Assembly: GCF_901447155.2 (NCBI RefSeq)
Contig: NZ_LR588413.1
Coordinates: 420,648-484,647, forward strand
From: Peptoniphilus catoniae
GTDB taxonomy: Bacteria; Bacillota; Clostridia; Tissierellales; Peptoniphilaceae
Length of the DNA: 64,000 bases
Direction: 5' to 3'
A program made the translations under genes and the position numbers. The notes below the pieces were generated by a model. The model saw only the letters and a program-made list of their open reading frames with translations, did no database searches and was not told the origin of the DNA. This document shows, piece by piece, positions 6,696 through 63,991 of this stretch (the stretch's first letter is position 1; each line of letters starts with the position of its first letter).

Positions 6696-6807
6696 AATCC
6701 CACCTCTTTTTGTATCTTCCATAATGCTATTATATAGCAGTTTTAAAAAATCTTTTATTTAATAATTATTAAACACAATTTTCTTTAAATTACTTAAAGT
6801 GCCATTT

Positions 6808-6836
6808 TTGACATTTACTTAAATTTATGATACCCT
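6808..6836 (+). promoter_or_regulatory. Candidate promoter of the YitT leader transcript
   Basis: A consensus TTGACA -35 (6808-6813), a 17-bp spacer ending in TGA, and a weak TACCCT -10 (6831-6836). This would start transcription near 6843, at the head of the structured leader. Confidence 0.45.
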
Positions 6837-6842
6837 TTTATG

Positions 6843-7067
6843 GTAAATTTATTTAGGTGGTTACCTTGAAAATTATCAAGGTAGTTTTTATCTGATGCCT
6901 ATATGCCGATCTAGAGCTTACTCGGTGCCTGATGTGGTACCGAAAAAGCGAAAAAGGTATTAAGCTGCTCAGAGTTTTTATAAGAAAAAATCTACAAACA
7001 ACAAAGCATCAACACCATCATAAGATTGCAGTGGGACTATGACCGCAGTCTTTTTTTGGTCATGTCC
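6843..7067 (+). ncRNA. Structured 5' leader RNA upstream of the YitT-family gene (candidate riboswitch/attenuator)
   Basis: About 220 bases with no ORF lie between a promoter-like site and the yitT-like gene. Visible helices are an 8-bp hairpin (6862-6869 with 6876-6883), a short CCGA/TCGG hairpin (6906-6909 with 6922-6925), and GTACC/GGTAT (6937-6941 with 6956-6960). There is a possible long-range pairing of GATGC (6894-6898) with GCATC (7006-7010). At the 3' end a terminator hairpin (GATTGC 7024-7029 with GCAGTC 7045-7050) is followed by seven T. Bases in its loop (7034-7044) can instead pair with 7058-7067 in a 10-bp helix having one bulge, an exclusive alternative. I compared the core by eye with the common riboswitch classes and recognised none. 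Confidence 0.6.
7024..7057 (+). terminator. Intrinsic terminator within the YitT leader (attenuator)
   Basis: A 6-bp stem GATTGC/GCAGTC with one G-T pair encloses a 15-base loop and is followed immediately by TTTTTTT at 7051-7057. It lies only about 35 bases before the yitT-like start, so it can control read-through rather than end an upstream gene; no upstream plus-strand gene exists. Confidence 0.65.
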
Positions 7068-7093
7068 TTATTAAAACAATAGGGGTGTATATT

Positions 7094-7729
7094 TTGTTAG
7101 ACTCGATTTTGAGTAGATTTTCTCTTAAAAGAGACAGTTTTTTTCGTATACTGCTAGGTTGCAGTATTATGTCATTTACGGTGGTAAACATTCACTTGCA
7201 GGCAGGAATTACAGAAGGCGGCGTCCTTGGACTTACAGTTCTTTTATATAAACTTTTGGACTTTGATCCTTCTATAGCAAGTGGAGCTTTGGATTTTATT
7301 TGCTTCCTTTTAGCTTTTTCCCGCTTTGGGAAGAATTTTTTAAAAAAGACAGCTGTAGCTTCCTTAGCCTTTGCAGTTTTTTATAAGATTTTCATGGGGA
7401 TAGGAGCTTTCTTACCTAGCTTTTATAATATGCCTATAATCGCTTCTGTTCTAGGAGGTATAGGTATAGGTATAGGTTGCGGTCTAGTTATAGAACAAGG
7501 CGGTGCAGCAGGAGGAGATGATGCTCTTGCTCTTGTTATAGCAGATAAACTTAAAGTGCATATTTCAAAAGCCTATCTTATTAGCGACCTTGTAGTGCTT
7601 TTTATGTCCCTTGCTTATATACCTTTTAATAGAATATTCTTTTCAATTATAACTACTGTTGTATCCTCTATTTTAGTGGGACAATTTGAAGTTAATCTTG
7701 AAGGTAAAAAGCAAGAACAAAGCGCTTAA
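7094..7729 (+). CDS. YitT family (DUF161) membrane protein
   Basis: Small multi-span membrane protein of the YitT/YczE-like DUF161 family, about 211 residues with five to six hydrophobic segments. The family feature is the N-terminal region NIHLQAGITEGGVLGLTVLL; the glycine-rich GGIGIGIGCGLVIEQGGAAGGDD stretch is also typical. It lacks the C-terminal cytoplasmic DUF2179 domain of longer YitT proteins. The biochemical role of the family is not established. The frame opens at a GTG (7085), but that GTG is inside the ribosome-binding site AGGGGTG; the TTG at 7094 is six bases beyond it and is the better start. It is the only gene on the plus strand in this part, and is preceded by a long attenuator-like leader RNA, so its expression is probably controlled by a metabolite or ion. 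Confidence 0.82.
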   Translation: MLDSILSRFSLKRDSFFRILLGCSIMSFTVVNIHLQAGITEGGVLGLTVLLYKLLDFDPSIASGALDFICFLLAFSRFGKNFLKKTAVASLAFAVFYKIFMGIGAFLPSFYNMPIIASVLGGIGIGIGCGLVIEQGGAAGGDDALALVIADKLKVHISKAYLISDLVVLFMSLAYIPFNRIFFSIITTVVSSILVGQFEVNLEGKKQEQSA

Positions 7730-52055: not shown

Positions 52056-52073
52056 TATTTCACCCCCGAATAT

Positions 52074-52184
52074 AAAAAAATCCCATCGCAGACAGGATGA
52101 GATATAGGAAACGAATTTATTTTTTCCGTACTTACCTCGGTAGGATTATTAAGGCTTTACCCCCTACTGTCTGCGGTTACAACA
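52074..52184 (-). ncRNA. L10 leader RNA (ribosomal protein autoregulatory element)
   Basis: In the minus-strand 5' leader of rplJ, CCGCAGACAG pairs with CTGTCTGCG to close a long helix. Inside are AGTAGGGGGTAAAGCC and TCCTACCGAGGT, the conserved kink-turn and internal-loop parts of the L10 leader. TTTTTTT follows directly at 52074-52080, so the closed form can also terminate transcription, giving feedback control of rplJL by L10/L12. Confidence 0.85.
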
Positions 52185-52190
52185 ATGTGT

Positions 52191-52219
52191 ATAATAACAT
52201 AATAGAAAACTATTGTCAA
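52191..52219 (-). promoter_or_regulatory. rplJ-rplL promoter
   Basis: Consensus TTGACA -35 (52214-52219), 17 bp, TATTAT -10 (52191-52196). The predicted start near 52184 opens the L10 leader. This is a strong promoter, as expected for ribosomal genes separated from rplKA. Confidence 0.85.
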
Positions 52220-62465: not shown

Positions 62466-62554
62466 TGGCGGAGAAGGTGGGATTCGAACCCACGTGGGCT
62501 TGCACCCTAACGGTTTTCAAGACCGCCCCGTTATGACCGCTTCGGTACCTCTCC
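62466..62554 (-). tRNA. tRNA-Ser (UGA)
   Basis: Cloverleaf with long variable arm, anticodon TGA, encoded CCA end. Confidence 0.95.
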
Positions 62555-62560
62555 AAAAAA

Positions 62561-62637
62561 TGGTGACCCATGCGCGATTCGAACGCGCGACACCTTGATT
62601 AAAAGTCAAGTGCTCTGCCGACTGAGCTAATGGGTCC
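62561..62637 (-). tRNA. tRNA-Lys (UUU)
   Basis: Cloverleaf with anticodon TTT, GTTCGAATC T-loop and encoded CCA. Confidence 0.95.
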
Positions 62638-62640
62638 TAT

Positions 62641-62717
62641 TGGCTGGGGTGGCAGGACTCGAACCTACGAAATGCCAGAGTCAAAGTCTGGTGCCTTACC
62701 GACTTGGCTACACCCCA
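62641..62717 (-). tRNA. tRNA-Gln (UUG)
   Basis: TGGGGTG acceptor, CCAGA/TCTGG anticodon stem with anticodon TTG, encoded CCA. Confidence 0.95.
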
Positions 62718-62722
62718 ATTAT

Positions 62723-62800
62723 TGGTGCACCTAGGAGGATTCGAACCCCCGGCACACGGATTAGAAGTCCGTTGCTCTATCCAACTGAGCTATAGGTGCA
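62723..62800 (-). tRNA. tRNA-Arg (UCU)
   Basis: Cloverleaf with anticodon TCT and encoded CCA. The 130-bp gap before the next tRNA holds a GGGTAT/ATACCC hairpin and a TATAAT-like box (62915-62920). Confidence 0.95.
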
Positions 62801-62933
62801 TAAATCAATTGTTTTAGGGTATTCTTATACCCTTTTCCCAAATTCACATATTTTCCTAGTAGTACGTTGCTAATGCTGTACTCTCATTATTCACTCTTAC
62901 TGACTACCTTTAGAATTATACCACAAATTTATT

Positions 62934-63007
62934 TGGAGCGGGTGAAGGGAATCGGACCCTCGCAACCAGCTTGGAAGGCTGGGGCTCTACCACTGAGCTA
63001 CACCCGC
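62934..63007 (-). tRNA. tRNA-Gly (UCC)
   Basis: GCGGGTG acceptor, anticodon TCC, encoded CCA. Confidence 0.95.
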
Positions 63008-63017
63008 ATAGAATTTT

Positions 63018-63103
63018 TGGTGGAGGAGAGTGGATTTGAACCACTGAAAGCTTAGCTAACGGATTTACAGTCCGTCCCCTTTGGCCAACTCGGGAACTCC
63101 TCC
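63018..63103 (-). tRNA. tRNA-Tyr (GUA)
   Basis: Class II tRNA with extended variable arm, anticodon GTA, encoded CCA. Confidence 0.95.
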
Positions 63104-63146
63104 TTATTTATAGGAACTCTTATCCTTGCTCCTCTTTCGTAGTTTT

Positions 63147-63222
<76 letters not shown>

Positions 63223-63223
63223 A

Positions 63224-63300
63224 TGGCGACCTGGATCGGGATCGAACCGACGACCTCCAGCGTGACAGGCTGGCATTCTAACCATCTGAACTACCAGGCC
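63224..63300 (-). tRNA. tRNA-Asp (GUC)
   Basis: GGCCTGG acceptor, anticodon GTC, encoded CCA. Confidence 0.94.
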
Positions 63301-63320
63301 AAGAACTACTTAGTTTTTTG

Positions 63321-63396
63321 TGGTGGGCACAATAGGGCTCGAACCTATGACCCCCTGCTTGTAAGGCAGATGCTCTCCCAACTGAGCTATGCGCCC
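63321..63396 (-). tRNA. tRNA-Val (UAC)
   Basis: GGGCGCA acceptor, anticodon TAC, encoded CCA. Confidence 0.95.
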
Positions 63397-63402
63397 ACAC
63401 TT

Positions 63403-63478
63403 TGGTGACCCTGCCGGGAATCGAACCCGGGATACCACCGTGAAAGGGTGGTGTCTTAAACCGCTTGACCACAGGGCC
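63403..63478 (-). tRNA. tRNA-Glu (UUC)
   Basis: GGCCCTG acceptor, anticodon TTC, encoded CCA. Confidence 0.95.
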
Positions 63479-63490
63479 TTATTAAATTTA

Positions 63491-63567
63491 TGGTAGCGGC
63501 GAACAGATTTGAACTGCTGACACTGCGGGTATGAACCACATGCTCTAGCCAACTGAGCTACGCCGCC
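63491..63567 (-). tRNA. tRNA-Met (CAU), elongator
   Basis: GGCGGCG acceptor fully paired, anticodon CAT, no GGG/CCC anticodon stem, so elongator type; a lysidine Ile tRNA is a less likely alternative. Confidence 0.88.
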
Positions 63568-63587
63568 ACAATCATTAAAATAACTTA

Positions 63588-63664
<77 letters not shown>

Positions 63665-63686
63665 TCACTTCTTACCTACCTTTTTA

Positions 63687-63775
63687 TGGTGCCGAGGACC
63701 GGAATCGAACCGGTACGATGTTTTACCATCGCAGGATTTTAAGTCCTGTGCGTCTGCCAGTTCCGCCACCCCGGC
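63687..63775 (-). tRNA. tRNA-Leu (UAA)
   Basis: Class II tRNA with long variable arm, anticodon TAA, encoded CCA. Confidence 0.95.
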
Positions 63776-63779
63776 ATCC

Positions 63780-63854
63780 TGGCTCTCAGGGTGGGACTCG
63801 AACCCACAACCTACCGGTTAACAGCCGGTTGCTCCACCATTGAGCTACCTAAGA
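63780..63854 (-). tRNA. tRNA-Asn (GUU)
   Basis: TCTTAGG acceptor with one G-T pair, anticodon GTT, encoded CCA; first tRNA after 5S rRNA. Confidence 0.94.
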
Positions 63855-63874
63855 TCATTTATCCTTTCGGATAA

Positions 63875-63991
63875 TCCGGCCTTACCTACTCTCCCGGGTC
63901 GTCTCCAACCGAGTACCATCGGCGCTCTGAGGCTTAACTTCTGTGTTCGGTATGGGTACAGGTGTCTCCCTCATGCTATCTTTACCGGATC
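63875..63991 (-). rRNA. rrf: 5S ribosomal RNA
   Basis: About 117 bases; TCCGGT at the 5' end pairs with GCCGGA at the 3' end. The conserved CCCATACCGAACACAGAAGTTAAGC arm, the GAGCGCCGATGGTAC region and the GGGAGAGTAGG region are present. It is the promoter-proximal side of the tRNA cluster; 23S rRNA is expected beyond the right edge. Confidence 0.93.

Follow-up and report, generated by a model that had tools for sequence, protein, structure and literature searches.

A covarying leader RNA in front of a short YitT/YczE-type membrane protein gene: an orphan riboswitch candidate in Peptoniphilaceae and Aerococcaceae

The short yitT gene of Peptoniphilus catoniae appears to be preceded by a structured cis-regulatory leader RNA, an assignment strongly supported by conservation, covariation and exclusive association with one gene family. 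The conserved element spans positions 6856 to ~7085 of the window, that is the whole stretch of 64,000 nucleotides that was analysed (Table 1). We judge it probable that this element is transcribed as the 5' UTR of the yitT mRNA and belongs to a new class of structured leader RNAs. The class would most likely be an orphan riboswitch whose target is a membrane transporter or channel of the short YitT/YczE type. Put simply, an RNA of ~165 bases, located before a small membrane-protein gene in two bacterial families, probably senses some molecule that sets the synthesis of the protein. The original prediction of an unassigned structured leader in front of a YitT gene is borne out by covariation, conservation, exclusive gene linkage and the lack of a matching Rfam class. 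Its limits (6843-7067) held in part: the non-coding structured stretch exists, but the conserved part had to be redrawn as given above.

Table 1. Features of the yitT leader and its gene (window coordinates; predicted from sequence).
Feature	Position	Strand	Description
Aptamer-like core	6856..7019	+	four-way junction (P1-P4) and pseudoknot; covariance-model match 6853-7020
P1, 5' strand GGUGGU	6856..6861	+	pairs with ACCAUC 7014-7019; 4/6 pairs with two-sided changes
P2 hairpin	6862..6883	+	6862-6869/6876-6883; 4/6 modelled pairs with two-sided changes
J2/3 GUUUUUA	6884..6890	+	identical in 40/41 distinct rows (alignment A2) and 42/49 (alignment A4)
P3 arm	6891..6973	+	P3 6891-6895/6969-6973; P3a 6903-6907/6956-6960; P3b 6916-6919/6946-6949; P3c 6922-6929/6936-6943
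P3c loop UGAUGU	6930..6935	+	pseudoknot partner of GCAUCA 7006-7011
P4 hairpin	6975..6990	+	U-rich/A-rich stem, loop AUAAGA in the window; one pair U-A to C-G in 6 distinct rows
Terminator-like hairpin T	7022..7057	+	AAGAUUGC 7022-7029 with GCAGUCUU 7045-7052, U tract 7051-7057; read from sequence
Helix S2	7034..7067	+	10 bp, one bulge; 7034-7044 (T loop) with 7058-7067 (past the U tract)
Possible anti-Shine-Dalgarno hairpin SDH	7066..7084	+	CCUUAUU 7066-7072 with AAUAGGG 7078-7084; overlaps S2
Shine-Dalgarno AGGGG	7081..7085	+	seen in the sequence itself; most homologues have AGGAG/GGAGG here
Short YitT/YczE-type membrane protein	7094..7729	+	PF02588; TTG start inferred, listed ORF begins at GTG 7085

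The leader (6849-7090, 242 nt) folds at -64.9 kcal/mol, as compared to a mean of -49.5 (sd 4.5) for 200 shuffled versions (z -3.4). To collect homologues, the window and nine related leaders were combined into a covariance model, R1; with it the window, being one of the 10 seed sequences, scores 167.5 bits. As identical rows were merged before counting (43 to 41 and 51 to 49), the 51 aligned homologues gave 49 distinct rows, in which 29 of the 47 core pairs change on both sides, as compared to 18.7 in shuffles, and none of 500 shuffles reaches that number. The conservation and covariation in relatives that the original prediction had called for were thus found. Across these rows 91.6% of the cells pair, and sliding the partners against each other lowers this value to 37-53%. 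Two-sided changes affect all pairs of P3a (5/5), P3b (4/4) and P3c (8/8), one P3c pair being unpaired in 29/49 rows. The joining segment J2/3 is altered among the 49 distinct rows in L006 and in six Aerococcaceae rows. The pseudoknot is nearly invariant, with 99.7% of the cells paired, and is supported by conservation and by one-sided changes that keep the pair.

Since the 49-row alignment had been fitted to the structure, RNAalifold was applied to a plain MAFFT alignment as an independent check. This approach yielded -54.9, as compared to -10.4 (sd 3.3) for 30 column shuffles, and recovered P1, P2, P3, P3b, P3c, P4 and one P3a pair, with two-sided changes in 24 of 43 pairs. RNAalifold also pairs J2/3 with the A-rich linker, a competitor of the pseudoknot, and there no two-sided changes were seen. 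What is expected of a riboswitch, namely a conserved and covarying structured core in a 5' UTR, was found, on the understanding that the stretch is presumably transcribed as such.

A search of the whole window with Rfam 15 returned 16 matches, none of them within the yitT leader at the curated gathering thresholds, so that the leader falls into no Rfam 15 family and the original prediction, which had recognised no known riboswitch class by eye, was right on this point. Elsewhere in the window lie a ribosomal protein L10 leader (52066-52194, minus strand; 72.2 bits) and 14 clustered tRNA genes with a 5S rRNA (62469-63989, minus strand). Some known riboswitch classes include outliers that score below threshold, and the leader might be such a divergent member missed by the Rfam models. 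Against this, relaxing the search of 6780-7130 to E values up to 10 gave five sub-threshold matches, the best being Arrc11 with 19.6 bits where 52 are needed; three divergent members searched at E up to 10 brought no class near threshold, and 20 loci searched at E up to 1 had no match overlapping the leader. We therefore regard a hidden known class as highly improbable. Two individual hits were discarded as evidence for a known riboswitch, t44 on L067 (16.6 bits, threshold 44) and SAM-Chlorobi on the minus strand of L115 (16.1 bits, threshold 35).

In literature other than subscription journals and preprints, no work joining yitT with a riboswitch, motif, RNA or leader was found, nor one on an orphan riboswitch in Peptoniphilus. 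Works listed for YczE and riboswitch, Finegoldia magna and riboswitch, or DUF161 membrane protein and riboswitch (one among those listed, on mycobacteria, has all three) contain, in the portions available, nothing on this leader RNA. Likewise, the main texts of three orphan-riboswitch screens (PMC8632094, PMC11109978, PMC6429828) name no Peptoniphilus, Finegoldia, Anaerococcus, YitT or DUF161. As far as these main texts go, the candidates reported there rest on the same kind of evidence as the leader, namely an intergenic motif that is conserved and accompanies a gene family.

The covariance model detected the RNA in 42 of 130 Peptoniphilaceae genomes, with exactly one copy each, and in 10 of 76 genomes of Aerococcaceae, the family of Fundicoccus, again with one copy each. 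Broader searches, in which stricter filters were used and weak matches were lost, found it in 42/249 genomes of the order of Peptoniphilaceae (all within this family), in 6/341 of the class (all Peptoniphilaceae) and in 1/398 of the phylum, the window's own. In the order of Aerococcaceae 8 of 295 genomes matched; the sole newcomer, L147 (30.7 bits), is apparently coding and was not counted. Further matches that were too weak to be counted are L122:4749 (18.4 bits) and L136 to L138 (18-23 bits). A pattern scan of named genomes returned 64 stretches, 37 of which match the model with at least 52 bits while the other 27 do not; carriers among the named genomes are Peptoniphilus, Anaerococcus, Aedoeadaptatus, Finegoldia, Neofamilia, Murdochiella, Urinicoccus, Fundicoccus ignavus and Globicatella sulfidifaciens. 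No copy was found when plasmid and phage collections were searched by blastn with the leader. Four viral stretches fit the sequence pattern and none of them matches the covariance model; the viral match L033 sits in a coding frame and was rejected as a copy. As far as the tools used reach, an origin of the leader from a known class, from chance or from mobile-element debris is made unlikely.

The RNA is tied to a single kind of gene. A YitT motif occurs within 700 bases downstream in 49 of the 51 aligned copies; the remaining cases are L122, which is cut off but whose YitT could be read through L135, and L071, which ends at a contig edge. Hence, all readable copies (50/50) precede the same short YitT/YczE-type gene, the start of which usually lies within ~110 bases of the core, whereas the other flanking genes vary between genera. 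Among 101 genomes searched, 97 have a match to the protein and 26 a close one (E 2e-42 or better). The RNA accompanies this close orthologue in 20 of the 26 genomes and is absent in six, where the loci (L021, L022, L024, L026, L027 and L028) gave no model match above 12.4 bits even with filters off. One genome holds a second YitT in a longer frame (324 aa; L001, G000:C8:11617-12237), at which no RNA-model match beyond chance was obtained (best 11.2 bits).

The yitT product (214 aa) matches PF02588 (106 bits, 2.1e-30), the domain by which membership is judged with or without a C-terminal DUF2179; no other Pfam match at 0.001 was found and DUF2179 is lacking. In the available part of PMC4944035, YczE denotes a DUF161 membrane protein without C-terminal DUF2179 and YitT one that has it; by this definition the protein would fit the YczE type rather than classical YitT. 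According to the same portion of this source, YitT/YczE (DUF161) proteins are without a settled function, and YczE genes are linked to MocR-type regulators, with metabolite transport being suggested. The MocR/YczR-regulated YczE genes described there share the kind of target, a DUF161 protein without DUF2179, but differ in their predicted regulator: in those Actinobacteria and Proteobacteria it is a transcription factor of the MocR type, and here it would be an RNA leader. An AlphaFold2 model of the protein revealed no clear solved relative. Inspection by eye showed that in two RNA-less loci a gene for a MerR-type regulator with a possible ligand-binding part is located divergently beside the short yitT (L027 1754-2563, L028 2158-2964); this neighbour may hint at the handling of a drug or a toxic, harmful compound. 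In two others, a sodium/glutamate symporter-like gene follows the RNA-less short yitT (L022 2285-3499, L024 2299-3513; by eye). As to the start codon, TTG at 7094, inferred from the protein alignment, is more likely than GTG at 7085, as the latter falls in the Shine-Dalgarno sequence.

In a YitT tree of 54 rows, the nine Aerococcaceae proteins fall into two starred groups. Seven of them stand together, placed with weak support next to a Peptoniphilus protein; the other two lie inside a starred clade with Murdochiella, where the tool warns of long branches meeting. This split in two places of the tree suggests that yitT and the RNA were passed between the two families on more than one occasion, whichever the direction. 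Inspection by eye further showed that in Peptoniphilus gorbachii, harei, vaginalis and phoceensis (L088, L094, L076 and L087) the RNA-yitT pair stands behind nusG-, rplK- and rplA-like genes, and an Rfam L10 leader comes after the pair in L038. In these Peptoniphilus loci the pair seems to have been inserted inside a ribosomal-protein gene cluster.

An RNA that goes with a single gene family may also serve as a binding site for a protein. In this alternative, a cellular RNA-binding protein rather than a small molecule would recognise the core and set the downstream structures T and S2, which is compatible with the linkage to a single gene and with the very high conservation of loops and joining segments. 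However, YitT is an integral membrane protein and as such an unlikely self-repressor, and most loci have no second gene family beside the RNA-yitT pair. Moreover, most protein-binding RNA sites are smaller than a pseudoknotted multi-helix core of this kind. We consider a protein-binding leader improbable, albeit the most serious competitor, and the most likely kind for this new RNA class remains the riboswitch.

Downstream of the core, a terminator-like hairpin, T (AAGAUUGC...GCAGUC followed by a U tract), comes directly after P1 in most homologues, and of 40 rows examined, 34 retain the hexamer GATTGC found in its 5' strand. The original prediction had placed an intrinsic terminator at 7024-7057; a terminator-like hairpin with a U tract is indeed there, but its stem was redrawn (Table 1). 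Of 43 homologues, 42 have a recognisable T strand and U tract, the exception being L118; in L107 the recognition is nominal, as no such hairpin is seen by eye. In the loop of T, a UACGAGG...CCUACGACC-like motif recurs in several homologues (e.g. L083, L067 and L139) and is common to both families; the motif has repeated ACG flanks, and its 3' half takes part in S2. Platform recognition succeeded in 33 of 37 homologues (not in L118, L107, L119 and L062). In L118, L107, L090 and L006 the core persists although the platform has changed or is missing, as is seen with riboswitch aptamers. Left out of platform recognition and of the T/P1, S2 and Shine-Dalgarno sets were L049, which is identical to L112, the truncated L113 and L122, and L071 (in platform recognition for lack of sequence).

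In folding predictions, the probability of T is ~1: across 43 homologues it averages 0.999 with P1 forced and 0.967 with P1 forbidden. A difference above 0.1 occurred in four homologues, each time toward more T with P1, and no dependence of T on P1 was seen in the other 39 of 43. In the two-state picture, the link from the core to the platform is a presumed one. A convincing upstream anti-terminator was not found in the leader homologues. One candidate occupies the classical anti-terminator position, pairing 7022-7029 with the 3' strand of P2 and J2/3 (GUAGUUUU, ~6882-6889). Over 7 nt, 34 of 40 rows allow this pairing, L107 having been set aside. When the consensus strand is used it reaches 98% of rows at 8 nt, and shuffled strands reach 80% of rows in 7/200 cases at 8 nt, 16/200 at 7 nt and 42/200 at 6 nt. 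In Aerococcaceae, all eight pairs can form in L067 and L139, seven in L122 and L145 and six in L143, whereas the pairing is broken in L142 and L144; L140 and L141 have an altered J2/3. We keep it as a candidate that is only suggestive.

The original prediction had further proposed a 10-bp helix with one bulge (7034-7044/7058-7067) that would exclude the terminator. This helix, S2, is present in the window and covaries over 42 homologues: its summed energy is -745, as compared to -414 (sd 17) with shuffled partners (0/200) and -427 (sd 23) with partners swapped among the homologues (0/200), many of the 42 being near relatives and hence not independent. S2 is individually strong in 32 of the 42 and no better than shuffled partners in seven (the set excludes L118, which is without T). 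The proposed exclusion of the terminator did not hold. S2 shares no base with the stem of T, so that the two could coexist, and its 3' strand lies downstream of the U tract. Thus, S2 cannot act as an ordinary anti-terminator, since polymerase has already left the U tract behind when this strand emerges; an attenuator calls for an anti-terminator that shares bases with T and forms before this point. The terminator/anti-terminator switch as originally drawn, whose anti-terminator helix uses sequence past the U tract, is not supported. A plain transcription attenuator with S2 as anti-terminator, for which the existence of T and S2 and the covariation of S2 may be adduced, has accordingly very little in its favour, all the more as the 3' strand of S2 can pair with the Shine-Dalgarno region instead.

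The leader could alternatively be a trans-acting small RNA that ends at T and lies before yitT by chance. Such an RNA would have its own terminator-like hairpin, and promoter-like sites (9/12) occur in 42 of 48 homologous upstream stretches, a frequency to be read against the 26% of single-base shuffles that have one. In the window itself, the originally noted promoter-like site is present as TTGACA (6808) and TATGAT, but the two elements are only 12 bases apart and weak, and neither scan gave a 9/12 site. However, conserved pairing runs on past T toward the Shine-Dalgarno sequence and one gene is always next where readable, which makes a free small RNA very doubtful.

Because the 3' strand of S2 can pair with the Shine-Dalgarno region, S2 looks like an anti-sequestor rather than an anti-terminator. 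At least three of the five Shine-Dalgarno bases are paired in 33 of 38 homologues (the set excludes L118, without T, and L112, L048 and L145, without a recognised Shine-Dalgarno motif). In these 38, the predicted chance of the Shine-Dalgarno sequence being free averages 0.25 and climbs to 0.79 once S2 holds the shared strand, the gain exceeding 0.3 in 31 of them. Sequestration by the hairpin SDH was compared with shuffled spacers in 39 homologues: the mean chance of a free Shine-Dalgarno sequence is 0.27 as observed and 0.42 with shuffled spacers; SDH stands out in seven, and nine fail to beat half of their own shuffles. With partners swapped among 35 homologues (9 rows skipped), the sum is -207 for own partners and -162 (sd 10) for swapped ones (0/300). 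The predicted pairing of the S2 3' strand with the Shine-Dalgarno sequence is therefore supported for the set of homologues and weak for most of them singly. Toning down the claim on SDH left our confidence in the main claim unchanged, the latter being founded on the core and the gene linkage.

In the mechanism that we propose, T would end most transcripts in the OFF state and SDH would close the remaining ones. In the ON state, the loop strand of T would pair downstream as S2 and free the Shine-Dalgarno sequence. S2 would act on read-through transcripts by opening the ribosome-binding site, and this single strand would couple the transcription decision with the translation decision. Less firmly, we suppose that the core binds a small molecule, perhaps the substrate of YitT, and thereby sets the choice. 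We lean, without commitment, toward an OFF switch: it would be simplest as P1 abuts T without overlap, and P1 favours T in the 4/43 foldings in which it matters. The sequences are best read as those of a candidate orphan riboswitch that would act at both termination and translation. The fuller version, a new riboswitch class with the substrate of the short YitT/YczE protein as ligand, an S2 strand linking termination escape to opening of the ribosome-binding site, and an RNA-gene pair that moved between bacterial orders as a unit, has in our estimation about an even chance of being correct.

Riboswitches for metabolites and ions that work through termination or Shine-Dalgarno platforms (Rfam cis-reg) share with the leader a compact covarying core located in the 5' UTR of a transporter-like gene and followed by a terminator-like hairpin, and a platform that is more variable than the core. 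The leader differs from them in that it has no Rfam 15 match at threshold and no convincing upstream anti-terminator, and in that one strand (S2) seems to join termination and translation.

Taken together, the analysis adds a candidate RNA class whose aligned copies number 51 (49 of them distinct) and which occurs in anaerobes including Peptoniphilus, Anaerococcus and Finegoldia. The leader also allows the idea of a single strand that links transcriptional with translational control to be put to the test. As a leader RNA always tied to one YitT/YczE subfamily, it offers a direct handle on the function of the protein, and identifying the ligand of the RNA would probably name what YitT/YczE moves or relieves.
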